A stretch of 64,000 nt of DNA from positions 110,195,319 to 110,259,318 of the forward strand of contig CP136066.1 in the NCBI GenBank assembly GCA_032622095.1, given 5' to 3'. Below are positions 4,473-58,771 of the stretch, in pieces (within the stretch, counting starts at the first letter, position 1; the number at the start of each line of letters is the position of its first letter). The notes beneath the pieces are model-generated. The model was not told the origin of the DNA, ran no database searches, and worked only from the letters and a program-made list of their open reading frames with translations. A program made the translations under genes and the position numbers. The stretch comes from Siphonodentalium dalli. Lineage: Eukaryota > Mollusca > Scaphopoda > Gadilida > Siphonodentaliidae.

Positions 4473-6216
4473 TTTAGCTCACCTGAGACGAAGTCTCCGG
4501 TGGAGCTATAGTCATCACTCCTCGTCCGTCGTCCGTCCGTCCGTCTGACCGTCCGTCCGTCCGTCTGACCGTCCGTCCGTCCGTCCGTCAACAATCATCT
4601 TCTTCTCCTGTATCATAAGGCCAAATGAGTTCATATTTGGTGTGGATGTTCCCTGCTTGACTCAGACTCAGATTTGTTAAAATAAGGTCACTGAGTCAAA
4701 TAGTTGCGAAGCTAGGGCCATAACTCTTTCCCGCCATAGTAATTCTTAAAACAACTTCTTTTCAAGAACAATCAGGCCTATTTAGCTTATATTTGGTATG
4801 GAATGTCCTTGAGTGACTGGGGGTCAGATTTGTTCAAATGGGGTCACTGGGTCAATTAGGGGCAGAATCAGGGACATAACTCTATTCTCCCTAGTAATTA
4901 TTAGAATGACTTCTTCTCCAGAATCATCAGGCCGATTTAGCTAATATTTTGTATGGTGGGTCCTTGTGTGACTGGGGTTCAGATTTGTTCAAATGGGGTC
5001 AGTGTGTCAAATAGGGGCCGTGTCAGGAACATAACTTTAAAAAAAAAAAAAAAAATATTTTTAAAAATATTGTTAAATTTAAATCCTTGCTCAATTCAAA
5101 AAACAAATCACAATTCAAAATGAACCAATACAAAAATATTTTTTTCATTTTAACCCCTGATTTTTTGTATTTTTTTAGACACAAAACTCCCCATTCCACC
5201 CCTTTCCCTCCTCACCCCTCTACACCCCTGTCCCCACTACCACCCCCCCCCCCATTCTGCGCCGCCCTGCACCCACTGCAGTCAAGAAAAAATTAATTAG
5301 AAAAACTGACACCTTGTAACATCCATAAAGTATGGTATTAGCCCCAGACAGAAAGAGTTAATAAGTCATCAATTCAGATGTTATCTAGCTGGCTGACAGC
5401 TAGGTGTAAACAGTCATGCTCTGTGTGTATCATTAACATATCATATCAAAACAAAATGCTGTATGTCTGACATTTGCAGAATGAGGTCCCCAGAGGGTGA
5501 ATTTAGTGATGCTACTCTGCACAGTAGGCTAGCATCACCAAATACACTCTCCAGGGACCTCATTCTGCTTAGGCTTCATCTTCAGGGAAGTATACAGGTC
5601 TTAAATTGACATTTCTACTTACTTTTTCCCTTCTGTTCAGTTTCTATATTCCCTAATTTGCTGTCAGAAGATAAAATTGATAATTGAAGTGCCCAATGGG
5701 TGCACATCACCAATTAACTGGACAACTTTAATCTGTTCCTATGTCTCCCATGGCAGTTGAGGCCTAAGCATAATGAGGTCCACAGAGGGTGAATTTGGTG
5801 ATGCTAGCCCACCTTACAGGATTGCAGCACTAAATTCACCCTTTAGTGACCTCATTCTGCAAAAGTCAGACACTATATTCAGGCTTGGCTGTTCCACTAT
5901 TATATTCTTAACCACCACCTATCCAGTTGTACTCATTATACCCTGATTTGCAAAGAAAACTTGGGGGGGGGGTATATTGGATTGAATTTGTCTGTCCATC
6001 CGTCCATCAATTTTGTTCTTCTCCACATACATATTAAAGACCGAAATGGTTTATATATTTTGACTCACATTCAGATTTGTTCAAATGAGTTCATCAGGTC
6101 ATATAGGTGAGAAGCCAGGGCCATAACTCTTTCCCTCCATAGTAATTCTTCAGAAACCATCAGGCCTATTTAGCTTTTGGTATGGAGGGTCCTTTGGTGA
6201 GTGGGGTTCAGATTTG
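4473..6216 (+). repeat. Tandem duplication, unit 2 (~1.8 kb)
   Basis: Near-identical second copy of 2653-4380. It differs by additional CCGTCCGTCTGA microrepeats at its start, by homopolymer lengths (C-run near 5246, G-run near 5964) and by scattered single bases. The ~90 bases between the units (4381-4472) are unique. Unit 2 leads at its right end into a repeat continuation that unit 1 lacks, so the duplication boundary falls inside a repeat. Confidence 0.9.
5464..5872. mobile_element. ~409-bp MITE, copy 2
   Basis: Same structure as the copy at 3622-4030. It was carried along by the tandem duplication, so it is not an independent insertion. The hairpin modules are at 5476-5568 and 5768-5860. 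Confidence 0.75.
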
Positions 6217-6548
6217 TACACGTGAGGTCATTTTTAGGAAACTTTTGAGGAAAATCAGTTTTCTTCAACTCTTAAAATCTACCGTTTGAAATTTCTAGAT
6301 GAATAGATCTCATAGATGGGGATTCACATTTGTTCAAATAAGGGCAGAGATAAGAGATTTAACTCTCAACCACCCACCCTACCTGTATGTATGCTGTTTG
6401 ATACTGGTATAATAATATATAGATTCCTATTGATTTCTAAGCTGCCTGGGTGGAGGCAATGAGGCTGTAGATTTGATTTTTCAACCAGTAACAGTCCACA
6501 TTTTCCTACTTCGGGTTAAACTGTTCGACCGAAATCGCCACAAATGTT

Positions 6549-7303
6549 AACAGGTCTATTTTGCTGATATTTAGTATGAAGGGTTCTTTGGTGTCTGGTA
6601 TTGAAATTTATTCAGATGTGGTCACCAGGTTAAATAGGGTGGGACCAGGGACATAACTGTATGTCTCTATAGTCATTCTTAAATTGTCTTCTCAAGAGAG
6701 GTTGGACTATTTAGCTTACATATAGTATGGATGATCCTTTAGTGACTGATATTCAGATTTGTTAACATCAGGTCAACCTGTTAAGAAATGACGGGGGCTA
6801 TGGGGAGTTAACAATTTTGTGTTTAAAAAATCATTGAAATACCAAATTCATTAAAACATCTTCCTTGGAACTACCTAACTGATTAATCTGACATACATGT
6901 ATGGCGTTTTGGGTCCATGGATAAATGGGCTTCAAACATGTCTAAATGGTTTTATAAAAAGGTGCTTGTGAGATTGGAAATTTCCAAAAATTGAGAAAGT
7001 TTGAGATGTCGGTTGTGAAATTCCAACCCAAGACTTGGGAGTCTAGAGCCCGGACGGGAGGGGACTTGTTGAGCTGGAGGAGGGGGGTGATCAGTAGTGA
7101 ACAGTGGGCAATTTCATGGTGGATATTCACCTTGAAATTACCCACTGTACACTACTGAAGCCTCTCTAGCCACATATCGTGTTTAGATCTACTTTTTTCA
7201 AAGTGCTTATGAAAAGTTCTGACTATTGTGGTCTCCAGAGTCCCAGTCTCATCAGTCTTTGCAGTCTGGTGAGCGACCCCACAGTCTTTGACTGTCTTGT
7301 TTA
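6549..7303 (+). repeat. Long direct repeat, copy 1
   Basis: About 750 bases that reappear at 9085-9791. The matching order is a 'TTTAGTATGAAGGG' block, 'AGGTTAAATAGGGTGGGACC', 'TCTCAAGAGAGGTTGGACTA', 'GACTTGTTGAGCTGGAGGAG' and a final 'CAGTCTGGTGAGCGACCCC'. No ORF above noise. Confidence 0.8.
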
Positions 7304-45018: not shown

Positions 45019-45024
45019 TATATA
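45019..45024. repeat. Target-site duplication, left (TATATA)
   Basis: TATATA directly outside the left AGTAGTGTATATG terminus, matched by TATATA at 57628-57633. A 6-bp duplication is the known Polinton/Maverick signature. TATATA is its own reverse complement, so the same six bases could also be read as the outermost part of the inverted repeat. Confidence 0.75.
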
Positions 45025-45485
45025 AGTAGTGTATATGATAAACCATCTCGTATACTTGACAGAAGGAGAGATATAGTAAGACATACTAATAACTATTTCT
45101 AGGCAGATGGTTATAGTAAGCAAACTATTTGTAGGTAGATGGTTATAGTAAGCAAACTATTTCTAGGCAGATGGTTATAGTAAGCAAACTATTTCTAGGC
45201 AGATGATATAGTCAGGCTAACTAGTAACTATTTGAAGGATTAGTACGCACGATTGAATATATGTATTGATATATAGGTTAGTTATGATAGATTAGTAAAA
45301 TAATAGTCGATGAATTATCCGCTAGTGAATAACCTCGTGCATGTAAAAAACCACAAGGCTAAAACACATGGAATATTTGTTAGTGTCGGAACTTTTTCTT
45401 CTTTATTGTAGATTTGTAGGTAACACTATTCGATCTCATAAAACTCGATATTACAGAGTCTCGTAGAAAACGAAATGTGGAACCC
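45025..45485 (+). repeat. Terminal inverted repeat, left (461 bp)
   Basis: Reads as the exact reverse complement of 57167-57627 from AGTAGTGTATATGATAAACC through ...CGAAATGTGGAACCC. Both arms are exactly 461 bases long with no indel detected by eye. Beyond 45485 similarity continues imperfectly for about 30 bases (ACACTTTAGTTC). It contains a 32-bp tandem repeat. Confidence 0.92.
45091..45218 (+). repeat. 32-bp tandem repeat, four units, in left TIR
   Basis: Units start at 45091, 45123, 45155 and 45187 and run AACTATTTCTAGGCAGATGG plus TTATAGTAAGCA. The second unit has two substitutions (TTTGTAGGTAG), and the last diverges at its end. Degenerate echoes ('CTATTTCTAGGTT', 'CAATTTCTAGGTT') continue at 45650-45720 outside the TIR. 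The mirror copy is at 57434-57561. Confidence 0.9.
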
Positions 45486-46390
45486 TTCACACTTTAGTTC
45501 ATTTAATGAATATAAATGTGAATAAATCTTAGTATACAAACAGATATCAAAAAACATAATCAAATCAATCTTTTGTTAAGATATGGACAGTCTGGTCTCC
45601 CCGTCGAAATATCTTCAAACAAAAATGTGTCAATATTTAAAGTCAGACTAACTATTTCTAGGTTGGTGTTTAAATACCTCTTCTAGGCTATACTCAAACA
45701 AACAATTTCTAGGTTATTCAAACATTTCCAAAAATATACTGAGTAAATCTACAAATATTAATTGGAATATAAAGAACAGAGTTAGCTCCCCTGTGCATTT
45801 GAATAATCTGTTTTATTAAGTTCAATTTAGATCTTAAACGATTGATATATGTTAATGAATGATACAGTGATATATTCGTTAGCGAATAAACCTATGCATG
45901 TAAAACCACAGGTCTAAACACATTGAACTTTTTTAGGAACGTTCTTCTGTAGATTAGTAGGCAACACATTTGTATAACCATGTATAACCATTATCGGTTC
46001 CTTTAAACATTATGAATGATGGAAATATATTCAAATCAATCAACTTATGTTGGAATATATAAAAATATGTGTATCAAGCATGTTAAATTGTGAATAATTA
46101 GTTATTTATATCACACCAACGTTAATTCATAATCTATAGTATTTTAGGAAAGAAAACTGGAACAAATAGTAACTATTTTCGGTTTATATCAAGACAACGT
46201 ATTTCAATTCCAACACAAATTCAATATTTCAGAAAAATAAAAAAAATCTCTCTTTTAATGAAATATGTAAAAGCACGATAAAGCAATTAAAAACACAATT
46301 TAAGTTACTTTTTCGTCAACAAAATTGAAGTTATATGTTATAATGCTTAAAAATACATGAAAATCCTTAATCAAATATCTCAATTGAAAG

Positions 46391-46432
<42 letters not shown>

Positions 46433-47610
46433 AAATGTTAACTTTATATGTTTCGCTCGCAAGCATCAAAAGTCCCTTTTTATTACCACAATAATTGTAA
46501 AAGACAATAAATGTTTTGTCTTTAATCAAAAAATGTAAAAATATTATAATCTTAGGAAAACACTAATGTTTTCGTCAACAAAATTCAAGCACAAACTTTA
46601 TATGTCAATAAAATAATATGAAAATTCAATAAAACTTTAATCAATTTATTGCTAAATTTTTGAAAAAATGTTGACTGTTGACGCAATCAACTGATATTCC
46701 AAATGTTTTTACTCTGCCTCAATTTTACCTATGCGAATGTATCTGTTTATATAAGGAAAATTCATTCTATCTTTAGTCCCAACAAATGATGTCATTCGAG
46801 CCAAGTCGAATAATCTACCAACATAGTCACAAAACATGATAATGTCTTCGTCGAGAATTCATGTCCACCTCTGTTTAACATAACAAGACTTACTTACCCA
46901 TTAAAGAATAGATAATTAATCGAAGTATAATACTCTCTCAATTTCACCTGTGCGAATGTATCTGTTTATATAAAGAAAGTCATTCTATCTTTAACCCCAC
47001 CAAATGATGTCATGCTACACAAGTCGAATAAACCACTCTTATTCGTCAAGAATTCATGTCGAGCTCTATTTATAGAGTAACACATTAACTCAATCTATCT
47101 ATAGTCACACAAAAAAATACCAACAAAACATGTACCTGTTTTCGTCGCATACTATCTCAAGTTGAATGTAATTGTCGTCGCATAGTTTATATGATTAATG
47201 TCATTCAAGCCTTACATACATCTCTGTTCAAGGCCATTAATATCCACCCCATCGTTGCTCACATGTCAAAATATCGTTAACGATGCGTATCTATGACCGT
47301 ACAAAACGAATAATTTATACTACACATGTCAAATTTGCATATGTAAGGTATGTTACGGTAAACATTCCAATGTATGCTATATAAGCCAGCTAAAATAGGA
47401 AATCAAAGCATGGATTCAATAGTCAGATAAGTTTATTATATTATGATTTCAGATGACTTTTAATTAATTCATATCTTATTCAACCTATGTTCTGTATAAT
47501 TTAAAACGATAAATTAGAATCAAGTTTGTATATTTATCGGAGCAAAACATATTGAGGAAGTTTGAAGCAGTTGTCTTAAAGTGACACTAAGATTTATTTT
47601 CTTATTTGCA

Positions 47611-48240
47611 CACAGTATACTTTGTTTAAACCAGATGTCTTAAAATGGCACTAAGATTTATTTTATTATTTTATACTATTTATAAACAAGATGTCTTAAA
47701 AGGGCACTAAGATTTCATTTAAATCTCCAAAAGTGTTTCAATATTACAGCAAAATTTGTTTTTTTAATAATTTTTACCTCAGAATTGTTAATAAATAGGT
47801 CTTCTTCACATCATAATTCTTAAAAGGGAGCTAATAATTTAACTTAAATATGATTGAAAAATTATCGTTAAAGAGCGTTTATTATCTGTTTGTATGCAAC
47901 TCTTTCAATCCCTCGTAATATTTAGATACAGTATACTTTGTTCATCCCAGATGTCTTAAAATAACACTAAGATTTATTTTATTAATTTATCCATCTATTA
48001 ACAAGATGTCTTAAAAGGGCACTAAGATTTCATTTTATAATTTCAATACCAAAAGTGTTTCAATATCACAGCAAAAAAAATTGTAATAATTTTTACCTCA
48101 GAAATGTTAATAAATATGTCTTATTCATATCTTAATTCTTAAAAGGGCGCTAATAATTTAACTCAAATATGGTTGTACATTTATCGATAAAGAGCGTTTA
48201 TTATCTGTTTGTATGCAACTCTTAATTATAAAAAAACGGA
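47611..48240 (+). repeat. Direct repeat pair, 316-bp period
   Basis: Two copies, 47611-47930 and 47931-48240. Each runs from GTATACTTTGTT through two GATGTCTTAAAA...CACTAAGATTT units and 'TTTTTACCTCAGAA' to 'AAAGAGCGTTTATTATCTGT' and 'TTGTATGCAACTCT'. A fifth, single GTCTTAAAGTGACACTAAGATTT lies just upstream at 47572. Confidence 0.8.
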
Positions 48241-49529
48241 TACTGTTACACTCAAATTTTAGATTACAGTATCCAAATTAACATTGTTGCAATTCAGATT
48301 CTACAGAAAGTTATCTTTAAACATGCAAACTAAAAACAATAATCATAGTTTTACAATTTTTTTTTTATGTAAAATATTATTTGTCTACACGTTGTGGCTA
48401 AGTATATCGTAACAGTATATTTACATTTATCTAGCAAATGCGCTCTAATTTCTACAAATTAACATTCAAATTCAAATTTTTTTTTTTAATTTTTGAAAAA
48501 ATAAATACTGTAACAGTTTTGTTTACATAATAAATAAAGATAACACTTAACTGATTGTGGCAAATAATTCTTCTCTTAATCATAATGGCAACATGAGTTG
48601 GAAAAAAACATGCTGGTTAATCCGTACGCAATTTAGCATTTAATGTAAACACGATCGGAGAAAAACAATGCCCGGTCGTTCGTTTTTAAACTGGAATCTG
48701 CACACATGCATAAAACTCATTACTCACCGCCATTTTGAAATTTAAACATTTAGAGTAATTATTTTTCTCGCATTTCTGTAAAGTATAATGATGAACCAGA
48801 ATATAAAATGCTTATGTTCACACACGAGCACATGTACTTGCAATCATATGGCTATCAATAGTATGCAATTATCTCATAGAATCAATCAAACAATAATATT
48901 AAGCCAATTAGTTGCAACATTACATCAGGAATTGCTCGATGTCGTTAGACTAGGTTAATGTGTGTTTTATATGCTTGTCCCCGTTCATTATCTGCACATT
49001 TTTAAATCGGCACGGAAATCTACCTAATAAAAACAATTGAGATAGTTAAATGGGTGGACAGCACTCAATTATATCTGCATACAATAGGTGTGCAGAGCAA
49101 TATTTCTGAACTTGTATTGCATATGGATGTTGTATCGAAAAGGATATAGAGATGTACGTGGCCGAGGCGGAAGAAAACAAACCCAAATTATCACCAGCAT
49201 GTTAAATTTCACTACAACAGTTTTGTTTACAATATACTGTAACAGCTTTGTTTACGCAATTATGTTCTATTTATAGATGGAACTCGATTTAGTTGGAAGT
49301 GTATACACAATCTCCAATCGGGCAAGTAATATTCGTATGTTGCCAAGCGCATCGCGCGTGGACTGGAGTAATTTCCATCATCATACGTGTGCAGAGCAAT
49401 ATCTATGAACCTCTATTCTAACAGCGATTTGGTTGAATTGTATAGACAAGATTAATCATCTGAGATATATGGTCCAACTTAAAACCAATATAGCACCAGC
49501 ATGTTAAATTTTATGGAATTATGTATGTG

Positions 49530-49869
49530 TCATGGCGGGATTTAATTGAATATTTGTTGCTGAACAGGATTATCGGGTAAACAGTATGTTATCAGAAACA
49601 CCTATGCAAACACTCTACTAATTGTGTTACAGAATACAGCAAAATGTTACTGACTAATCGCGCATAAAATGGAATAAACGCTCTTCATTACATATCAGGT
49701 ATTATACAACGCTCTTTATGTTTACCACAATAATATTTCAAACCCCGGAAATGTAACTTTTTAATGCTTTTGTTTACAAACGTATGACCAAAACATACTG
49801 TTTATGCGATTGTTTTTACAGGATACCCACCGACAAGGCCATCCTTGTCTGTAAACATGATGAATTTAA
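49530..49869 (-). repeat. Sequence related to the TTAA MITE family, inside the element
   Basis: Read on the minus strand it follows copies A (1336-1858) and B (58270-58771) in order: GGCCTTGTCGGTGGGTATCC, 'CGCATAAACAGTATG', 'GTAAACAAAAGCAT', 'GGTAAACATAAAGAGCG', 'CCTGATATG', 'GCGATTAGTCAGTAACATTT', 'GATAACATACTGTTTACCC'. It lacks about 110 bases present in A and B and has no clear terminal inverted repeat. It may be a decayed MITE insertion, or the source from which the MITE family derives. Confidence 0.7.
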
Positions 49870-49978
49870 CATAATTGAACTAAATTTGCGCAGATCCGAC
49901 TATAAAATGTTGAGTGCTTCATTCTTACTACTGCTGTAACAGATTTGTTTACGTATATAAATTGCACTTACCTGATTA

Positions 49979-50242
49979 TTAAGAAAACACATGTAGCAAA
50001 TAATTCACAATGCCAACAATAGATTTAAAAAAAAAAAACACACTGAAATAAAACATGAGGGCCTCCATTCCCTTTATTGAGAAAGTAGATGTTACACATG
50101 CAGGAGCGTCATGGAATTGATCATCATCTAATGTTTCGTCGAAACTATCGTCGACAAATTGATCAACAGCAGGCCGTCTAATCCATGATGGTGTTGTGTC
50201 CAACTCTATCGCGCTGATCAATCGTTCCCGAACACTATTCAT
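49979..50242 (-). CDS. Small acidic protein with C-terminal membrane segment (hypothetical)
   Basis: The only minus-strand candidate in the element. I start it at the ATG at 50240-50242 (MNSVRERLISAI), giving about 87 residues. Residues 1-60 are acidic, with a D/E-rich cluster (DDSFDETLDDDQFHD), and look like real coding sequence. Residues ~65-87 are strongly hydrophobic (FYFSVFFFF...), like a tail anchor, but this part overlaps an A-run and may be chance read-through beyond a splice site. It lies divergently from the ATPase gene, sharing the ~440-base region between them. I do not recognise a family. Polinton-type elements often carry lineage-specific accessory genes in such positions. Confidence 0.35.
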   Translation of the reverse strand: MNSVRERLISAIELDTTPSWIRRPAVDQFVDDSFDETLDDDQFHDAPACVTSTFSIKGMEALMFYFSVFFFFKSIVGIVNYLLHVFS

Positions 50243-50681
50243 GTCCTCTACCAATGTTTATAGTTGAACTATCTGTTCAACACGATAAAATCCTCTTTTT
50301 TTTACCGCAAACTTAAATTTACATGATATATCAACACCCTTCCGCGCCCCTATGTGGTAAATTTTTTATTTCAACTGGCTTTAGATTGGTTCCGCCATAT
50401 TAAACAGAGGTGACAGTTCGTAATGGATTAGCATGGAGTCGACAATGGGCGGTGGTCGACAACAGGTAGTAAAATTTGAATTCAATAGGTGTTTCGCGAC
50501 ATTAAACTGCCGATACGGTTTGTAACGCGATAGCATCGAGTCGACAAAGCGTGTGATTATATATGGCTACCCACTGTTATGTATACATCAGATTCTCTCT
50601 TGTCAATTTTGCCGGACATCCAGTGTGTGGGAAAACAAATTGTGTTTTACTGAATTAAAGAGCGTTTGACAATAAAACACA
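50243..50681 (+). promoter_or_regulatory. Intergenic region upstream of the late-type gene cluster
   Basis: About 440 bases ahead of the first capsid-cluster gene. They contain a degenerate direct repeat (ATTAAACAGAGGTGACAGTT...TAGCATGGAGTCGACAA near 50398-50442, and ATTAAACTGCCGATACGGTT...TAGCATCGAGTCGACAA near 50501-50548). The motif TTAAAGAGCGTTTGACAAT lies at 50655-50673, ten bases before the ATG. The same AAAGAGCGTTT motif recurs at several other places in the element. A promoter role is inference from position. Confidence 0.35.
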
Positions 50682-51278
50682 ATGAAAACGTACAATTACG
50701 TATGTTTTAAGGATATATTTAGGGCCATTATTAATGGTCCATCTGCGTGTGGGAAATCTACGTTTATATATAGTTTAATCGAAAATAAAGATAAATTAAT
50801 GTTCCCAGTTCCGGAAAAAATAACTTATGTAACTCCTAATTGTGATCAACAGGTGTCTGATAATGTAGAATTAGTAAACCAAATTCCAGAATCGTTGTGC
50901 GATTGCGATTTATTAATATTGGATGATATGGATCATATTGACAAAGAGATCGATAATGTAACAGATATATTCGCTAGAAAATCACATCACGAAGGATGTA
51001 GTGTGGTATACGTGACGCATAATCTTTTTGAAAGAAAATGTAGAAAATTATCGTTAAACGCGAATTATTTTATTTTATTCAAATCTCCTAGAGATTGTGG
51101 TCAGATAAATTTCTTATCTACCCAATGCGGTATTAATAATTTATCAAAAGCATATAAATTGTGTACAACAGATCCATATTCTCATTTACTGGTGGATTTC
51201 AACCAAACTTGTCCAGATAACCTTCGATTGAGATCAGACGTGCTCAGTGAAAATCCTACGATATGGGCCCCAGCGTGA
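50682..51278 (+). CDS. FtsK/HerA-type (A32-like) DNA-packaging ATPase
   Basis: The genome-packaging motor ATPase that pumps viral DNA into the capsid. The 198-residue protein has a Walker A loop GPSACGKST (residues 19-27), Walker B LLILDD (77-82) and a following SVVYVTHNLFE block (107-117). In the A32-like family this last block, with the SLNANYFILFKSPRD stretch behind it, holds the sensor region. This layout is typical of Polinton, adintovirus and virophage packaging ATPases. At 198 residues it is compact but has all core motifs. It is first in the + strand cluster and overlaps the next ORF by 16 bases. The ATG at 50682 is chosen because it is the first in frame and leaves ~18 residues before Walker A, as usual in this family. 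Confidence 0.93.
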   Translation: MKTYNYVCFKDIFRAIINGPSACGKSTFIYSLIENKDKLMFPVPEKITYVTPNCDQQVSDNVELVNQIPESLCDCDLLILDDMDHIDKEIDNVTDIFARKSHHEGCSVVYVTHNLFERKCRKLSLNANYFILFKSPRDCGQINFLSTQCGINNLSKAYKLCTTDPYSHLLVDFNQTCPDNLRLRSDVLSENPTIWAPA

Positions 51279-51580
51279 AATTAAGAAAAAATGCCAAATA
51301 TTTGAGAAACATGTTACGCACTGGAGACGTGAGGGCATTAAACAGACCGAGATTAGACAGTCTATCTGAATGTTGTAATAATTTGCTTAAAGGAAATGTA
51401 CCAATTTCGTCTAAAATTAAAGCTAATTTAAGACCATTTAAAAGTTCTATTCGTCATTTGTCAAAGAAGTCTAATCCTGTTAAAAGCAGGAAAAAAAATT
51501 TACAACACGGCGGTTTTTTGGCTGCACTGGCTGCTAGTTTAATTCCTGTTTTAGGAGATATTTTAGGCAAAGTTTTCTGA
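51263..51580 (+). CDS. Small basic virion-core-type protein with GGF-hydrophobic tail
   Basis: A 105-residue protein: a Lys/Arg-rich body (residues 6-78), then QHGGF (81-85) and a hydrophobic C-terminus (85-105: LAALAASLIPVLGDI...). Basic proteins ending in a GGF-plus-hydrophobic helix are recurrent in Polintons and adintoviruses, where they have been compared to adenovirus core protein X/mu or membrane-active peptides. I make that comparison by pattern only. It probably binds packaged DNA or disturbs membranes at entry (inference). The start overlaps the ATPase end by 16 bases (ATATGGGCC context), and its stop is followed within two bases by the next ATG, suggesting coupled expression. Confidence 0.7.
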   Translation: MGPSVKLRKNAKYLRNMLRTGDVRALNRPRLDSLSECCNNLLKGNVPISSKIKANLRPFKSSIRHLSKKSNPVKSRKKNLQHGGFLAALAASLIPVLGDILGKVF

Positions 51581-51582
51581 AT

Positions 51583-52206
51583 ATGGAAAAAATGGTTTTG
51601 GTGCCTTTTAAGACTTTTGCAAACTGGCAAAATTCTCAGTCTATTCAATCGTTGAAAACAGAGGATGTGAGACAAAAAATGCATCAAATATTAGACGATA
51701 AAGATATGCCCGAGTCAGTTAAGAAAAGAAAAATTAATTCCACGTCTATTGAATATGACATGGCTAAGAATTCTATAAAAACAACGCCGATTCCAGTTAA
51801 AATCACGAAAGAGCCCGCCGGTGACGTCGCTTTATCTGAACCTAACCAAATTGATTTAGCGATTGAGAGTTTGCCAAAAATTTACCAGAAAAAAGGCTCG
51901 TTATTTTTATCGCATTTAAAAAGAATGCCAGGAATTGACATTAACGACAGTGGAATGATTTCATTATCTGACAAGCCAATCGGAAGCATAACTGATTTGG
52001 TAAATGATATAATACCTTCTAGCAAGGTCAGGAAACCCAGTGCACTTAGAAATTGGGATAGTTTGTCCCGATCATTACGAGATAATAATATACCAACACA
52101 TTTCATAGGAAATAAATTTCGTAAAGCAGATCTGATGGTTGCAGATGCCCCCAAAGGCAAAAAACAGAAGCATTTTAAATGGACATCAGACTCCTCGTCA
52201 AATTGA
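51583..52206 (+). CDS. Conserved Polinton protein of unknown function
   Basis: 207 residues. The N-terminus (MEKMVLVPF) and a block at residues ~92-180 match a pattern I know from many invertebrate Polinton-like elements: LPKIYQKKGSLFLSHLKRMPGI, a short 'DSGMISLSDKPI' strand region, ITDLVNDI, then a helical segment ending NIPTHFIGNKFRK. The middle ~45-90 is low in conservation and charged. The pattern suggests a small helical DNA-binding fold, but no function is established to my knowledge. It starts two bases after the preceding stop and overlaps the integrase by 62 bases in another frame. Intact, no frameshift. Confidence 0.7.
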   Translation: MEKMVLVPFKTFANWQNSQSIQSLKTEDVRQKMHQILDDKDMPESVKKRKINSTSIEYDMAKNSIKTTPIPVKITKEPAGDVALSEPNQIDLAIESLPKIYQKKGSLFLSHLKRMPGIDINDSGMISLSDKPIGSITDLVNDIIPSSKVRKPSALRNWDSLSRSLRDNNIPTHFIGNKFRKADLMVADAPKGKKQKHFKWTSDSSSN

Positions 52207-53263
52207 TAATATATTATCATCGATTTATTATGATGCATCTCACCGCTCATCCTACGGATCTGAATATAATTTGTATAAGGAAGTAAAAAAAAAAATATCG
52301 AGAAAAAATGTTCGACTTTGGTTACAAAAACAAAATTCGTACTCGTTGCATAGGCCGAAACGAATAATATTTCCTAGGTCAAGAACAGAGTCTTATTCTG
52401 TAAATAATATATGGCAGATGGATTTGAGTGATGTGCGAAATATATCCAAGCAAAACGATGGTTATTGCTACCTGTTGTTTTGCATTGATTGCTTTTCAAG
52501 ATTTTTAATTGTTAAACCATTAAAGAACAAGACTGGTGTTTCCATAATGAAGGCTTTAGAAATGATTTTTAAACAGCGCAAACGACCGAACGGTATACAT
52601 GTTGATCGCGGAACCGAGTTCTACAACGCTAACGTTAAGCAATTTCTGAAGAAGAATGGTGTACATTTATATTCTACGGGAAATTATGACACGAAAGCCG
52701 CTTTGGTTGAGAGAGTACAACGCTCTTTAAAGTCTAAAATGTATAAATATTTCTTCAAATCTAAATCTATGCGCTATTTAACAGTTTTGCCTAAATTGGT
52801 GAATTCATATAATTCGAAGATACACAGAGCGATTAAAATGGCACCGAAAGATGTGTCGTGTTTGACATCGCAAGCAATTGCAGCTAGAAATGAATCGAAG
52901 ACTTATAAATTACCACTTACAAAAGCAAAATTTAAAGTGGGAGAGAGCGTTCGCTTGGTAAAATTAAAAAATAAGTTTGAAAAGGGTTTTTTGGCCAATT
53001 ATACTTATGAAGTGTTTAAGATTACGTCTTTGGTACCTGGTTCTAAACCACATAGATATAAAATAGCTGATCTCAATTCAGAGGAAATATTGGGTACATT
53101 CTACGAGAGCGAGTTATCACCTGTAACGATTGATTCCGATACTATGTGGAAAATTGAACGTGTATTAGAACGAGACGGGGATCAAATAAAAGTTAGATGG
53201 AGCGGCTATCCAGCCAGTTTCGATTCGTACATTCCAAGAGAATGGATCACGACCTCAGATTAA
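52145..53263 (+). CDS. Retroviral-type (chromodomain) integrase
   Basis: A 372-residue integrase that inserts the linear element DNA into the host chromosome and makes the 6-bp target duplication. Catalytic D93 (QMDLSDV), D154 (VDRGTEFYN) and E189 (VERVQRSLK) form the DDE core, with 34 residues between the last two. Residues 15-80 are the usual Polinton N-terminal helical part (YYDASHRSSYG...ISRKNVRLWL...SLHRPKR); an HHCC zinc finger is not evident. Residues ~260-325 resemble an SH3-like/GPY region. Residues ~335-368 are a chromodomain (WKIERVLER...VRWSGY...REW), which can direct insertion to modified chromatin. I place the start at the ATG at 52145; an upstream TTG two codons earlier is less likely. 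It overlaps the previous ORF by 62 bases and the next by 22. Confidence 0.93.
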   Translation: MPPKAKNRSILNGHQTPRQIDNILSSIYYDASHRSSYGSEYNLYKEVKKKISRKNVRLWLQKQNSYSLHRPKRIIFPRSRTESYSVNNIWQMDLSDVRNISKQNDGYCYLLFCIDCFSRFLIVKPLKNKTGVSIMKALEMIFKQRKRPNGIHVDRGTEFYNANVKQFLKKNGVHLYSTGNYDTKAALVERVQRSLKSKMYKYFFKSKSMRYLTVLPKLVNSYNSKIHRAIKMAPKDVSCLTSQAIAARNESKTYKLPLTKAKFKVGESVRLVKLKNKFEKGFLANYTYEVFKITSLVPGSKPHRYKIADLNSEEILGTFYESELSPVTIDSDTMWKIERVLERDGDQIKVRWSGYPASFDSYIPREWITTSD

Positions 53264-53511
53264 AACGACAATCGTCAAAATGGACTTTTTTCAATAATAA
53301 AGTTTCCAAAGGACAGGTTGTGTATATCAGTCAAGTATTTTTGCTTTATATAGTATGTGTTTCTGCTATATTAAATATTAGTATACACGGCGTGGACACA
53401 CCGTCTATTTGGATTAGTTTACTATCGGGTTCTGTTGGACTTTTGTCTCCATCTCCTAAATTAAGTAAACATGGAAGCAACGGGCCTGTTTTCGGTGACT
53501 TTACCGTCTAA
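53242..53511 (+). CDS. Small membrane protein (Polinton-type)
   Basis: An 89-residue protein if started at the ATG at 53242 (MDHDLRLKRQ); an in-frame ATG at 53197 lies deep inside the integrase gene and is less likely. A first membrane segment (VVYISQVFLLYIVCVSAILNI) spans residues ~27-47, and a second hydrophobic stretch (IWISLLSGSVGLLS) residues ~56-69, followed by P-x-P-K-L and a polar tail. Short two-segment membrane proteins ending in a 'LLxPxPKL' phrase occur at the same place in other Polinton-like elements as I remember them. It may act in virion membrane contact or egress (inference). It overlaps the integrase by 22 bases and the next gene by 41. Confidence 0.55.
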   Translation: MDHDLRLKRQSSKWTFFNNKVSKGQVVYISQVFLLYIVCVSAILNISIHGVDTPSIWISLLSGSVGLLSPSPKLSKHGSNGPVFGDFTV

Positions 53512-54559
53512 TGTTTCTGGTGATTTATTCAGAAATTCACTATCTGAATATACCGTGAGTTTGCCTAGTGAGATTCGGTTACAGGAGGATGATTGGTGTG
53601 TAGCTTTATCATCAGCCATTATTCCAACCAGATTTAAAAGCCCGCTCCTGGAACAAAGAAATTTTACCTTTTCCACAGATGATCAATCTTATGCATTTGT
53701 TTATGGAATAGTGGTGGATATGAATTTCTTGACGCCAGAAACTGATTTACCAATTGTTAGAGATCCCAATTACGGTATTATTGCTAGGAAACTTCGGGTT
53801 AAAGGTCCGATTAGATGGAGGAAAAGTGTATTTACAAAGATTGAATATGGTGTTATTTTTGATGACAAATGTTCGTTCGAAGATTTGATAGATAGGATGC
53901 AATTAGTTCAACGAAAATTAATTTTGCATTTTTACAAAGATTCTGAATTTATGTCAGAATTAGAAAAGACGAAATATAAATTAATCGAACCAGGTTTGAA
54001 TTCAATCGATGCGAAAGAGTCCCAAACCATATTTGAGGATTTAATCGGGGATGTAGTTATTGACATTAAGGTGAGAAAACGTCAAAACGTGAACTACCTT
54101 TGTTTCACTAGAATGGCAAACCATACAAGCATGTCTCGTTATTCGTTGGCGATGGATTTGCAAATTACAAGGACTTCTGAATTGGGATATCTGCTTAATT
54201 TGCGTGAAAATTATCAACTAAAATTAAAAGATACCGGTGGAAAATCCAAAGACTGTTTTTTAATTGTAACTAATCAATTGGATCATATAGACGCTCTTTA
54301 TATTTATTCAGATATATGTACACATAGTATAGTAGGCGATTCTAATTCACAATTATTGAAAGTAATATGCCCACGTTCTGATGATATTGTATCAACAACA
54401 TATTATGAATTCGCAAATTTGCAATTTTTTCCTATACATCATAAGAATTTTGACACTATTTCGATATATATTCGTGATTCTACAGGTATGCCACCTCCTT
54501 GGACGGATTATGGTAAAACTGTTCTAGTTTTATTATTTAAACGCATTTTGATTGGATAA
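53471..54559 (+). CDS. Minor capsid / penton candidate
   Basis: A 362-residue protein with the N-terminal pattern FSVTLPSNVSGDLFRNSLSEY...SLPSEIRLQEDDWCVALSSAIIP (residues ~7-52), broken here for brevity. This N-terminal block recurs in invertebrate Polinton-like elements in a gene just upstream of the pVI-like and major capsid genes, the place held by penton/minor capsid proteins in adintoviruses. I therefore call it a minor capsid candidate, but the jelly-roll fold cannot be shown by reading. The middle (residues ~55-300) is beta-rich looking, without recognisable enzymatic motifs. The C-terminus contains a DSTGMPPPW phrase. It would form the vertices of the icosahedral shell (inference). 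The ATG at 53471 is the first in frame and lies 41 bases inside the membrane-protein ORF. Confidence 0.6.
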   Translation: MEATGLFSVTLPSNVSGDLFRNSLSEYTVSLPSEIRLQEDDWCVALSSAIIPTRFKSPLLEQRNFTFSTDDQSYAFVYGIVVDMNFLTPETDLPIVRDPNYGIIARKLRVKGPIRWRKSVFTKIEYGVIFDDKCSFEDLIDRMQLVQRKLILHFYKDSEFMSELEKTKYKLIEPGLNSIDAKESQTIFEDLIGDVVIDIKVRKRQNVNYLCFTRMANHTSMSRYSLAMDLQITRTSELGYLLNLRENYQLKLKDTGGKSKDCFLIVTNQLDHIDALYIYSDICTHSIVGDSNSQLLKVICPRSDDIVSTTYYEFANLQFFPIHHKNFDTISIYIRDSTGMPPPWTDYGKTVLVLLFKRILIG

Positions 54560-54612
54560 GGATTGATATTAAATATAAATGTATATAAATAGATGTTTCA
54601 TTATTTAAAGTT
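54560..54612 (+). promoter_or_regulatory. TATA-like sequence before the pVI-like gene
   Basis: One of only two gaps of ~50 bases inside the cluster. GTATATAAATAG at 54581-54592 lies 21 bases before the ATG at 54613, in a leader without other features. It is close to the start codon for a metazoan TATA box, so it could be chance in AT-rich DNA. Confidence 0.25.
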
Positions 54613-54978
54613 ATGGCGAATAGTCCTATTCCTATTTTTATAGGAGATAGGTATCAGAGAGGTTACGGACTTGGTTCTATTTTTGGTAAATTAGCCAGAT
54701 CAATTGCGCCAATTGCAAAAAATCTGGGAAAATCTCTTTTAACGAAAGGTTTAGAAACAGCCTCTAATGTTGGTAGTGATATATTGAGTGGGCAAAATTT
54801 ATCAGAATCTATTCGAAATCGAGGTAAAGAAGCAGCTTTAGATCTTTTACGGCCTAAACGTAAATTACAATATAATTCGGATATTCCATCAAAACGACGT
54901 AAATTACAAGAATATTCGGATATTCCTTCAAAAAGACGTAGGAAGAGACGAAAAACAAAACGTGATATTTTTGAATAA
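54613..54978 (+). CDS. Adenovirus pVI-like minor virion protein
   Basis: 121 residues in two parts. Residues 10-75 are Gly/Leu/Ala-rich and could form amphipathic helices (GYGLGSIFGKLARSIAPIAK, LLTKGLETASNVGSDILSGQ). This resembles the membrane-active internal proteins that sit between the penton and hexon genes in adintoviruses and other Polintons, and are likened to adenovirus pVI or to core proteins. Residues 80-118 are strongly basic, with two copies of SDIPSKRR (89-96 and 102-109), probably a DNA-binding or nuclear-targeting tail. It stops exactly where the major capsid gene starts (TAAATG at 54976-54981). Assignment rests on position and composition, not on catalytic residues. Confidence 0.65.
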   Translation: MANSPIPIFIGDRYQRGYGLGSIFGKLARSIAPIAKNLGKSLLTKGLETASNVGSDILSGQNLSESIRNRGKEAALDLLRPKRKLQYNSDIPSKRRKLQEYSDIPSKRRRKRRKTKRDIFE

Positions 54979-56286
54979 ATGAATCCCAACAGCTGTCCAG
55001 TTTCTAAGAGCGAGGTGGATGTTTTTGAAATTCCGCCTACTGTGGTAACTATAACAGACGGTTCATTTACAGAGAAACATCCATCGAATTCAAATTATTC
55101 AAATAGTAACGTACTAGAGTTCTTTTTAGAGTCTCCATCTGCACATTATGTTGATCTTTCGGAAAGTTATTTGCAAACCGACGTTAAAATATCGAAAACC
55201 GATGGAACCGTTTTCGCAGGCGATCAACACGCATTTCCAATAAATAATTTTCTTCATTCTTTATTCGAGAGAGCTGATTTATTATTAAACGGTGTAGAAT
55301 GTGGAGTTGGTCGATATTATGCTTATAGATCTTACATAGAAACTTTCTTAAGTTCTACAAGAGAAAATCAATTAGAGAGAACAACTTTATTTATACCTCA
55401 GAAAGGTGGGACTTTGGATGATGTACCGGCAGACATTGCCAGAGGTAGGCAGTTACTTGGAATAATTAAAGACGGTAATATTGGAAAAAAAATTCAATTA
55501 TGCGGTAAACTACATTTGGACATGTTTAATCAACCAAAATTGTTAATTCCAAACGTACCCATAAAACTCAGACTGCATAGATCAAAGCCTACTTTTTGTT
55601 TACAAGGTAGTGCTGGTGATTATAAGATTGAGCTGTCAGATACTAAATTGTTTGTACGAACCGTAGAGTTAAGTGATGTCACTTCAAATGAAATAAGCAA
55701 AAAGTTATTAAGTGGAACCAATGCTCAATATCCTTTGGATAGAGTTTCGTTAAAAACATTTAGCGTAGCACCTAGGACTTTAAGCTTGATTAAAGACGAT
55801 TTGTTTTTGGGTGATCCATTTCTTCCTAAGAGAGTGTTAATATTTTTAGTAGATAATACAGCATTTAATGGTACTATAGCATCTTCTCCTTTTAATTTTA
55901 AACATTATGATTGCTACGAAATGGAATTGTCTGTTAATGGTAAAACCGTGAATGGGCATAAATACGAACAAACTTTCGATGATGATTTATATGTAGGTTC
56001 ATATTACACATTTTTGAATTCTATAAATAAATTATATTGCGAGCAATCTTTCAGAGTTAGCTTTTTTGATTATGCCAATGGTTTTACAACTTTCGGTTTT
56101 GATTTAACTGCAGATCATAATGCTGATAGTTTAGTTTGGCATCCAAAACAGCGAGGTAGTGCACGGTTAAGTGCAAAATTTTCAACAGCTTTACCAGATA
56201 CAGTAAATGTAATAGTATATGCCGAATACGATAGTTCTATAGAAATTAGCGGGGAACGTAGCGTTTACACGGGTGGAATATTTTAA
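54979..56286 (+). CDS. Major capsid protein (double jelly-roll, hexon-like)
   Basis: A 435-residue protein that builds the icosahedral capsid as pseudo-hexameric trimers. Signature blocks of the Polinton major capsid family are clear. Residues ~85-125 read FPINNFLHSLFERADLLLNG, then YYAYRSYIETFLSS. Residues ~390-418 read GSARLSAKFSTALPDTV followed by VIVYAEYD. Many invertebrate database entries of this family are labelled F54H12.2-like. Two jelly-roll domains would lie at roughly 50-215 and 225-425. Length is in the usual range, no frame breaks are seen, and the start ATG abuts the preceding stop. The protease gene follows after four bases, as expected for a structural module. Confidence 0.92.
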   Translation: MNPNSCPVSKSEVDVFEIPPTVVTITDGSFTEKHPSNSNYSNSNVLEFFLESPSAHYVDLSESYLQTDVKISKTDGTVFAGDQHAFPINNFLHSLFERADLLLNGVECGVGRYYAYRSYIETFLSSTRENQLERTTLFIPQKGGTLDDVPADIARGRQLLGIIKDGNIGKKIQLCGKLHLDMFNQPKLLIPNVPIKLRLHRSKPTFCLQGSAGDYKIELSDTKLFVRTVELSDVTSNEISKKLLSGTNAQYPLDRVSLKTFSVAPRTLSLIKDDLFLGDPFLPKRVLIFLVDNTAFNGTIASSPFNFKHYDCYEMELSVNGKTVNGHKYEQTFDDDLYVGSYYTFLNSINKLYCEQSFRVSFFDYANGFTTFGFDLTADHNADSLVWHPKQRGSARLSAKFSTALPDTVNVIVYAEYDSSIEISGERSVYTGGIF

Positions 56287-56290
56287 CATT

Positions 56291-56743
56291 ATGTTGAGCA
56301 ACTTAGATATATCTGATGCATTAAAATCAGACTCAGTTTTGAATTCTATGATAATAGGCGTTTATGCTTTGGACGAATTACCTGATACTATTAAGCCGAA
56401 CAGAGGTTTAATTTGTAATACTGACCCATCTTGGTTAGATGGTGAACATTGGATATGTATATGGAAACGCGATGATAATTTTATAATATATTTTGATCCT
56501 ATCGGATTACCTCCATCTGAGCAGTTGAAAAATATGTTAGCTAAATATGGTAGATTGTATTATAGTACAAATTATATTCAACATATATCTTCTTTTTTGT
56601 GTGGTTATTTCGTATTATATTATTTGTATCATACTTGTAGAGGATTGGACTGTCTATACGTTTTAAATAAACCCGGTTTTCATAATGATACTTACGTTTA
56701 TAATTGGTGTAAACAACATCTACCCGTGTTGTTCGATATTTAG
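56291..56743 (+). CDS. Adenain-like cysteine protease
   Basis: A 150-residue maturation protease that cleaves capsid precursors during virion assembly. The catalytic triad is H53 (GEHWICIW), D69 (YFDPIG) and C104 (SFLCGYFVLYY). Q97, seven residues before the Cys, fits the oxyanion-hole Gln of adenovirus protease. N-terminal GVYALDELP and the 'W-x-D-GEHW' context are typical of Polinton proteases. The start is the ATG at 56291; the open frame extends 18 bases upstream from a GTG, but that lies inside the capsid gene. It is slightly shorter than adenain but complete around the active site. Together with the capsid gene it forms the conserved structural module of adintovirus-type elements. Confidence 0.92.
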   Translation: MLSNLDISDALKSDSVLNSMIIGVYALDELPDTIKPNRGLICNTDPSWLDGEHWICIWKRDDNFIIYFDPIGLPPSEQLKNMLAKYGRLYYSTNYIQHISSFLCGYFVLYYLYHTCRGLDCLYVLNKPGFHNDTYVYNWCKQHLPVLFDI

Positions 56744-56796
56744 TTTTTTTTTGTGCTATAAATGAAATGCTTTTTTATAATATTTTTAAAATCAAA
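56744..56796 (+). promoter_or_regulatory. Leader with TATAAA before the zinc-knuckle gene
   Basis: A T-rich gap containing GCTATAAATG at 56755-56764. The ATG at 56767 would add ten hydrophobic residues to the next protein. I prefer the ATG at 56797, preceded by ATCAAA. Function of the TATAAA is inference. Confidence 0.25.
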
Positions 56797-57054
56797 ATGT
56801 CTTCTGACAGTGAATTCGAAGTTTCTCAGAAAGGAAAGAACAGAGGGAGTTTAAAAAGAAAACTTTTAGATAATTTGGCTGATATAGAAGAGATAGGACA
56901 ACAAATTTCAATATTAGCTGATAAAAATGCTAAAATTTTGTATAGGATATCTAAATTGAATTCAGCTGATAAATTTAAAAAGACTCGTGTTAGATGTTAT
57001 GAATGTAACGGAGATCATTTAAGACCAGACTGTCCATATCTTAAAAAAGATTGA
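56797..57054 (+). CDS. Zinc-knuckle protein (hypothetical)
   Basis: 85 residues from the ATG at 56797 (MSSDSEFEVS), or 95 from the ATG at 56767. It has an acidic start and a basic patch (KGKNRGSLKRK, 12-22). A predicted helix with heptad-like hydrophobics follows (LLDNLADIEEIGQQISIL, 23-40). A C-terminal knuckle is C67-X2-C70-X3-H74-X4-C79 (CYEC, GDHLRPDCP). Retroviral-type zinc knuckles have X4 before the His, so this one is one residue short. A nucleic-acid-binding role, for example genome or RNA binding, is likely. It is the last gene of the cluster, and an AATAAA lies ~190 bases downstream at 57245 inside the TIR. Confidence 0.6.
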   Translation: MSSDSEFEVSQKGKNRGSLKRKLLDNLADIEEIGQQISILADKNAKILYRISKLNSADKFKKTRVRCYECNGDHLRPDCPYLKKD

Positions 57055-57166
57055 TTTGATTATGTTTGTTTTATGATATATTTAATATATATTGATCAAA
57101 ATATTGATATAATTGTGTTTGTTTATGATATATATTATTAATATTCATTAAAGGAACTAAAGTGTT
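57055..57166. other. Short AT-rich spacer between last gene and right TIR
   Basis: Contains two degenerate 'TTTGTTTATGATATAT' phrases near 57064 and 57118. The left-arm similarity fades out here (ATTAAAGGAACTAAAGTGTT). Confidence 0.5.
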
Positions 57167-57627
57167 GGGTTCCACATTTCGTTTTCTACGAGACTCTGTA
57201 ATATCGAGTTTTATGAGATCGAATAGTGTTACCTACAAATCTACAATAAAGAAGAAAAAGTTCCGACACTAACAAATATTCCATGTGTTTTAGCCTTGTG
57301 GTTTTTTACATGCACGAGGTTATTCACTAGCGGATAATTCATCGACTATTATTTTACTAATCTATCATAACTAACCTATATATCAATACATATATTCAAT
57401 CGTGCGTACTAATCCTTCAAATAGTTACTAGTTAGCCTGACTATATCATCTGCCTAGAAATAGTTTGCTTACTATAACCATCTGCCTAGAAATAGTTTGC
57501 TTACTATAACCATCTACCTACAAATAGTTTGCTTACTATAACCATCTGCCTAGAAATAGTTATTAGTATGTCTTACTATATCTCTCCTTCTGTCAAGTAT
57601 ACGAGATGGTTTATCATATACACTACT
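57167..57627 (-). repeat. Terminal inverted repeat, right (461 bp)
   Basis: Reverse complement of 45025-45485; every stretch compared matched, including the substituted second unit of the 32-bp repeat. Ends ...CATATACACTACT. It contains AATAAA at 57245-57250 in the + orientation, which could polyadenylate the upstream gene cluster. Confidence 0.92.
57434..57561 (-). repeat. 32-bp tandem repeat, four units, in right TIR
   Basis: Mirror of 45091-45218, with the same variant unit in the same relative place. Confidence 0.9.
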
Positions 57628-57633
57628 TATATA
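57628..57633. repeat. Target-site duplication, right (TATATA)
   Basis: TATATA directly after the terminal ...CTACT, matching 45019-45024. The next base (G) differs from the mirrored left flank, so neither the repeat nor the duplication extends further. Confidence 0.75.
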
Positions 57634-58269: not shown

Positions 58270-58771
58270 TTAAAGGTACGGTTGGCCTTGGCGGTGGGTA
58301 TCCTGTGAAAATATTTCCACCCGTCAAAAACCGCCACAAACAGAACGAACACCAAAATGTAGACAGACTTTGTCCGTATATAAATAAGAAATATCGCATA
58401 AACAGTATGCTATTCTCATATGTTTAACCATTGTTATGTAAACAAAAGCATAAAAAGTTACTTTTCTGGTGTTTGTTTATATTATGATGGTAAACATAAA
58501 GAGCGTTTTTTGTTGGTGAATTCCTGATATGGAACTAATAAAGAGCGTTTATGCCATTTGTGTGTGATTAGCCAGTAGCATTGTGCTGTCATCTGTAACC
58601 CAATCAGGCTCTTGCTCAGGTAAAATATAGTAGGTATTTATGATAACATGCTGTTTACGCGATGGTCATGGTATATATGAACAAAACTGTATGCGTTTTA
58701 ATGTTTTTCTGTTTACGGTGCTTGGAACAAATATGAATATTTTCGACAATTAAGGCCTCACGTGCATTTAA
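58270..58771. mobile_element. TTAA-flanked MITE, copy B
   Basis: Bounded by TTAA at 58270-58273 and 58768-58771. It follows copy A (1336-1858) closely in order: GGCGGTGGGTATCCTGTGAA, 'CCGTCAAAAACCGCCA', 'GCATAAACAGTATG', 'GGTAAACATAAAGAGCG', 'AATAAAGAGCGTTTATGCC' and 'ATTTGTGTGTGATTA'. The left end TTAAAGGTACGG matches the family; the right end is degraded. It lies only ~640 bases from the Polinton-like element's right end. Confidence 0.8.

Follow-up and report, generated by a model that had tools for sequence, protein, structure and literature searches.

How does a mobile element that carries genes for a viral shell and for its own integration spread in an animal genome, when no polymerase gene can be detected in it? 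This question is raised by a stretch of 64,000 nucleotides from the scaphopod mollusc Siphonodentalium dalli (NCBI GenBank assembly GCA_032622095.1, contig CP136066.1, positions 110,195,319 to 110,259,318 of the forward strand), hereafter the window, in which an element of the Polinton/Maverick type occupies positions 45025-57627. We propose, with a probability of about one half (0.52), that it is a copy of a non-autonomous Polinton/Maverick family that lacks the protein-primed DNA polymerase B (PolB) and would be replicated by PolB supplied in trans. The evidence consists of its gene content, the lack of a detectable PolB, near-identical terminal inverted repeats (TIRs), target site duplications (TSDs), many copies, a low ratio of nonsynonymous to synonymous substitutions (dN/dS) in the gene of the major capsid protein (MCP), and a mosaic copy.

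Intact ends and a left half without detectable polymerase

The element is 12,603 bp long, begins with AGTAGTG and ends with CACTACT, and is flanked on both sides by the palindromic 6-bp duplication TATATA, read from the sequence at 45019-45024 and 57628-57633. In the left TIR (45025-45490, plus strand) a 32-bp unit occurs 3.8 times (45091-45212), and the right TIR (57162-57627, minus strand) was delimited by an inverted-repeat search and by TIR matching. Including the duplication, the inverted arms (45019-45490 and 57162-57633) measure 472 nt and are 100% complementary after rounding; the right TIR is 100% identical to the left one over the outer 461 of 466 nt, and two mismatching bases lie near the inner edge. 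These coordinates, with both TIRs and the 6-bp duplication, are exactly those given in an earlier note on this DNA, which had been made from the letters alone and had described a complete Polinton/adintovirus-like element without PolB.

Between the left TIR and the first gene lies a region (45491-50681) that showed no coding signal and no detectable PolB in a six-frame Pfam scan, in comparisons with shuffled sequence and in an Rfam scan. The G+C content is 25-30% across 45-49 kb and about 35% to the right. No PolB was found with Pfam-A in the six frames of 45491-50442 (stops read as X), a scan that had no positive control and that ended before 50443-50681; its sole match was Fer4_19, with an E value of 0.26. 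The longest stop-free frame in 45491-50681 has 92 aa, which is no excess over chance, as 200 first-order Markov shuffles gave a median of 93 aa and a 95th percentile of 130 aa. The Rfam scan of 45025-50700 returned nothing up to an E value of 1. The absence of PolB and of any sizeable open reading frame (ORF) from this half, as claimed in the earlier note, thus held in these searches. We also considered a captured host gene as the origin of the left half; this was not supported, since the longest frame equals the shuffled median and no credible Pfam match was obtained.

Genes for packaging, integration and the capsid

The genes, all on the plus strand, follow the order packaging ATPase, two small proteins, integrase, candidate penton, basic protein, MCP, protease candidate and zinc-knuckle-like protein. 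The ATPase (50682-51278, 198 aa) matches Pfam Adeno_IVa2 (E 1.6e-5, 24.3 bits, cut-off 21), with a Walker A motif from residue 19 and a Walker B motif from residue 77; a single homologue was found, at 36% identity, and a search of solved structures gave no match. The integrase (52139-53263) matches Pfam rve (E 4.9e-17) and eight solved integrase sequences (E 2.6e-7 to 2.9e-6), among them PFV integrase (E 1.2e-6). Its catalytic triad is present as D95/D156/E191 counted from the TTG start, equivalent to D93/D154/E189 from the ATG. A C-terminal motif at residue 351 looks chromodomain-like by eye, and Pfam Chromo was not listed at E ≤ 1.

The MCP (54979-56286, 435 aa) was assigned to the double jelly-roll (DJR) fold from its homologues, a structure model and Foldseek. 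Most of its 111 homologues are unnamed. Among the named ones, spider proteins under the names F54H12.2 and F54H12.2-like predominate, and Ciona, a skink and a newt contribute one each. The model, with a mean predicted local distance difference test score (pLDDT) of 74, retrieved the MCPs of an iridovirus (E 2e-14), Sputnik (1e-13) and mavirus (4e-13), and it also matches the DJR capsid protein of PBCV-1. An alignment of the MCP against viral_contigs produced nine pattern matches and no confirmed relative. The cysteine protease-like protein (56273-56743), a candidate for the Ulp1/adenain type of protease that Polintons have and examined by ORF, Pfam and solved-match searches, has the triad H59/D75/C110 counted from GTG, or H53/D69/C104 from a later ATG; its matches are weak (solved SdeA, E 0.02; S273R cysteine protease, E 0.63; Pfam SidE_DUB, 17.7 bits, below the cut-off). 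The earlier note had listed these integrase and protease residues, and both Walker motifs, as marks of intact genes: all of them are present, and the capsid gene that it named is backed by homologues and by matches of the DJR model.

A family of copies and their left ends

The genome comprises 2.23 Gb in nine contigs (C1-C9), C6 being that of the window. A query with the TIR, for which the best 40 of 370 candidates were scored, identified at least 40 main places and four fragments. When places were paired by opposite strand and distance, 32 of the 40 formed 16 elements and eight single ends remained; the copy number is therefore a lower bound, and these single ends may have partners among the candidates that were not scored. 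Twelve of the 16 paired elements span 12.0-12.9 kb, and the others 13.9, 14.7, 16.5 and 16.5 kb. The earlier note had proposed a search for further copies of the TIR, and this is its outcome.

Twenty probes of 2 kb were taken just inside the TIRs, from 14 of the 15 other pairs and from six of the eight single ends; the fifteenth pair is covered by the sequences L002, L003 and L009. Eighteen probes match the window element. Ten of these match the gene side, with 95-99.95% identity, and eight the left, noncoding side, with roughly 82-95% identity along the main stretches; the remaining two (L013 and L017) match neither side over their 2 kb. With TIRs at 40 or more main places and 18 of 20 end probes matching, we rejected the idea that the window element is an accident of one copy. 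Perfect 6-bp TSDs of different sequence (TATATA, GACAGA, AGTGCG) flank all three elements for which both flanks were read, so that an origin of the copies as duplicated host segments is not supported by the flanks, which were compared at the TSDs.

The noncoding left end of the window type was seen in nine other copies, including one at C3:33.2 Mb (L005). Counting the window's own, 10 of the 13 left-type ends are of this type and three are of another type. In all eight left-side probes the longest frames have 62 to 129 aa. The nine other ends differ from that of the window by roughly 5-17% over their main stretches, and because of this divergence the layout of the left end appears to have been passed on over many insertions instead of having arisen once. 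When left-side identities were sorted into bins, the best aligned stretch was used for each of seven copies.

The similarity between the two ends of the window element continues inside the TIRs as three inverted patches of 26-29 nt at 93-96% identity, reaching 45598 on the left and 57022 on the right. The left part of this decayed extension (45521-45598), patchily similar to 57022-57165, is a remnant, in inverted orientation, of the end of the zinc-knuckle-like gene, the last one of the element, and five gene-side probes (L012 and L020-L023) match from 45521 or 45534 to 45598 at 86-91%. Since inverted patches persist so far inward, the repeat was probably longer in the past, extending into the end of the last gene, with identity kept only in the outer part. 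Homogenisation of the ends is expected of linear protein-primed replication, and a repeat that is identical outside and patchy inside fits repeated rounds of it. This bears on a route in which PolB is dispensable, the integrase excising or copying the element and host enzymes replicating it like an ordinary DNA transposon. The intact integrase residues and TIRs, and the many copies with no proven helper, would agree with such a route. What speaks against it is no positive finding but the fit of the repeat pattern to end homogenisation, and chromosomal conversion could give the same pattern; we consider the route improbable.

Constraint on the capsid and protease genes

We compared the ten other copies reached by the gene-side probes with the window, each against the window as reference. 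Gapped codons were excluded, codons were read in the frame of the window (stops behind frameshifts were thus uncounted), and where a codon had several changes, these were counted one after another in a set order. In the MCP part examined (1,095 bp), the difference from the window is 0 to 3.6% for nine of the ten copies and 4.6%, with gaps counted, for L023. Summed over the ten copies, its dN is 0.009 and its dS 0.043, a ratio of 0.21, and no in-frame stop occurs in the frame of the window; the ratio for the protease is 0.39. Three copies on different contigs (L014 on C4, L016 on C1 and L018 on C6) match the capsid part of the window element at 99.9-100% and its protease at 100%, and because of this near-identity we regard the spread of the family as recent.

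A longer form and a mosaic copy

Two elements of 16.5 kb (C3:13215361-13231864 and C3:235484258-235500719) have the TIR of the window family (96%) and are about 3.9 kb longer. Over the probe the two agree with each other at 99.9%, and over 1.5 kb both agree at 98.9% with the far end of the 14.7-kb element. Because that element has its gene side at the other end, L013 and L017, which were taken from the 16.5-kb elements, represent left-type ends; all three elements thus have a common outer left end, other than that of the window. The longer copies with the same TIR that the earlier note had suggested looking for do exist, but their outer left end is not the one of the window element.

In this other left end lies an open frame with a length of 224 aa or more (L013 1329-2000 and L017 1327-2001, both minus), which showed no Pfam match when L013 was scanned in six frames and gave a weak match to a PHROG of unknown function (E 0.0047). 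Such a frame could represent a diverged or replaced replication gene that escaped recognition and was lost in the window form. The lack of a Pfam match, together with the weak PHROG match, would be compatible with this, as would the visible mosaic between the two forms described below. However, the left half of the window has no frame above chance length, and its gene-side ORFs of at least 150 aa, bar one of 207 aa, have been assigned, some provisionally, to other functions; we therefore give this explanation little weight.

The 14.7-kb element (C9:149.5 Mb; L009 is C9:149518250-149525500, scanned with Pfam in the three plus frames of 5170-7251) combines the gene block of the window with the other outer left end. 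Compared with the window it has six differences over 50832-55172 but 20 within 50694-50831, which places a sharp breakpoint inside the ATPase gene, at window 50694-50831. Further left, 50463-50680 is strongly diverged and 50006-50462 has no match. To the right of 55172 no match to the window was found up to the TIR, and full capsid and protease frames are absent. Since near-identical, diverged and unmatched stretches alternate along this copy, its sequence indicates that pieces are exchanged between elements.

Two side observations concern this copy. Just outside its TIR (L002 2110-3261, minus) lies a second integrase of the Polinton type, which differs from the first and has a chromodomain; the copy may have inserted into or next to another Polinton. 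In addition, the left half of the window element has a 91-aa frame (49979-50254, minus; Pfam PutA_1st, 16.3 bits, below the cut-off of 27), of which about 45 aa align with part of a 144-aa frame of the copy (L009 5631-6065, plus); this may be a left-half gene that is decaying.

Proposed replication with a borrowed polymerase

According to the reading that we prefer, the 12.6-kb form keeps its TIRs and the genes for integration and packaging, and would borrow PolB. The TIRs would most likely be recognised by a protein-primed PolB that acts in trans and is encoded either by a longer relative having these TIRs or by another Polinton. The 16.5-kb form would be the first candidate for a helper or a parent, because it has room for PolB and the same TIRs. 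Linear copies would then be inserted by the integrase of the element, leaving the 6-bp duplications, and would perhaps also be packaged.

Several observations weigh against this proposal. The PolB-less interior of most copies is deduced from their total length and one end, both ends having been read for the window and for C3:33.2 Mb. The MCP has gaps in L021 (two bases), L022 (one) and L023 (20), and the protease in L020 (22), so that four of the ten copies are affected in one or the other. The zinc-knuckle gene (56767-57054, 95 aa, with a CX2CX3HX4C motif, from the ORF and the comparison of copies) appears unconstrained: its ratio is 1.26, L010, L020 and L021 carry one-base insertions, and codon 8 is an in-frame stop in five of the ten copies. 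As codon 8 is followed by another methionine, which is residue 11 in the window, this stop may mean only that the gene starts later. The dN/dS values derive from one reference and non-independent copies, and the constraint could stem from a master lineage that bears PolB. Finally, the mosaic matches the window again at 49052-50005 (954 bp, 95.6%), and the two forms may accordingly share the inner left half, which would make the long form look more like a simple parent.

In another account, an autonomous 16.5-kb parent lost its PolB region by deletion or replacement, and the short form then multiplied passively, without leading the life of a satellite; its capsid genes would seem conserved only through a recent split from the parent. 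A PolB gene is of about the size that fits the additional 3.9 kb of the two longer elements, their left end has the open frame described above, and the 14.7-kb copy joins their outer end to those 954 bp of the left half of the window; the gaps and the stops listed above also agree with passive amplification. In opposition to this, the outer 2 kb of the long form (L013 and L017) have no match in the window element, so that a plain deletion would be insufficient and replacement of the outer part by recombination would be needed, and the divergence of about 5-17% among left ends of the window type argues that this form is not brand new. We regard such a derivative as rather unlikely, though worth considering.

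A bolder form of the borrowed-polymerase reading is a virophage-like satellite in the germline of an animal: a multi-copy and recently spreading element whose shell, packaging and integration genes are under selection, which gave up its polymerase, and which lives on and recombines with a longer Polinton that has the same ends. We advance this tentatively, as a possibility with the odds against it. The earlier note had interpreted the element as self-packaging and dependent on others for replication, comparable in logic to a satellite virus; the parts of that interpretation that stand are the lack of a detectable PolB, the nearly full Polinton gene set and the many related copies.

Remaining features of the element

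Downstream of the ATPase are a 105-aa basic protein with a hydrophobic end (51263-51580, from the ORF and a Pfam scan) and the 207-aa protein (51583-52206), to which ORF, Pfam and PHROGs scans assigned no function. The protein of 362 aa at 53471-54559 has two unnamed homologues, with which it was aligned; it is a candidate for the penton (minor capsid) protein by its position and by Polinton motifs, and its fold model (pLDDT 36) is too low for use. The 121-aa basic protein with a glycine-rich stretch (54613-54978), an ORF with no Pfam match above the cut-off, resembles small virion proteins. A PHROGs scan of five proteins gave two weak matches of unknown function.

Inside the left half there is an imperfect tandem duplication with a period of about 319 bp (47612-48223), as well as a repeat at 49572-49818 that we take to be a host repeat, with an inverted copy outside the element at 58385-58663 (72%). 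A further copy of this dispersed repeat lies at 1538-1648, and identities between copies are 70-72%.

Comparison with known systems

The literature compared here is cited from excerpts. The window element resembles Polintons/Mavericks (Polintoviricetes) in its 6-bp TSD, long TIRs, rve integrase, packaging ATPase, protease candidate and F54H12.2-like DJR capsid protein, and differs from them in having no detectable protein-primed PolB and in its size, 12.6 kb as against 15-20 kb (PMC4028283); intact vertebrate Mavericks have a mean of 16.9 kb and a range of 12.7-24.6 kb (PMC8097293). With adintoviruses it has in common an rve integrase, here with an end that looks chromodomain-like by eye, and a DJR (hexon-type) MCP. 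However, adintoviruses are defined by PolB and hexon, and the PolB with an OTU-like domain that forms part of this definition (PMC11071296) was not found in the window, so that the label of a complete adintovirus, given in the earlier note, does not apply. The same source mentions genomes with virion proteins of the adenovirus class in which neither PolB nor integrase is recognisable.

Polinton-like viruses (PLVs) mostly lack protein-primed PolB (pPolB) and the rve integrase but have other replication genes (PMC11071308, PMC4642659), and it has been suggested that the integrase of resident Polintons serves some integrated PLVs in trans (PMC4642659). Compared with a PLV, which has an MCP of the PgVV type and usually neither rve integrase nor protease, the window element has an rve integrase, a protease candidate and an MCP whose named homologues are F54H12.2-like.

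Polintons that lost their capsid genes have been described (PMC4028283). The reverse case would be the one proposed here, a Polinton that has capsid and integrase genes but in which no replication gene is recognised, and that is dispersed through the genome of an animal. The excerpts of PMC8097293, PMC3671162 and PMC6431247 contain no animal element with a capsid and an rve integrase and no polymerase, nor was one found in the open-licence literature among the matches listed; a term beginning Polinton-1N occurs once among those matches, in PMC9341505, so that non-autonomous Polintons may exist by name. The nearest precedent in the literature searched is the ciliate element Tlr1 of Tetrahymena, which resembles the window element in having an rve integrase, an ATPase and both capsid genes, and which has been described as having no DNA polymerase (PMC4642659). 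Tlr1 differs in that it has a helicase, whose current interpretation is that of a pPolB-S1 helicase fusion (PMC11071308), whereas no replication gene was recognised in the window.

Unlike virophages, the window element resides in an animal chromosome, has a Polinton-like gene set, and has a helper that is only a candidate. Like virophages, which are helper-dependent satellites with their own capsid, it would follow a comparable logic if that helper were confirmed; helper, satellite and recombinants would then be found together in one animal genome, and the packaging of animal Polintons would become testable through selection on capsid genes that is uncoupled from the polymerase.

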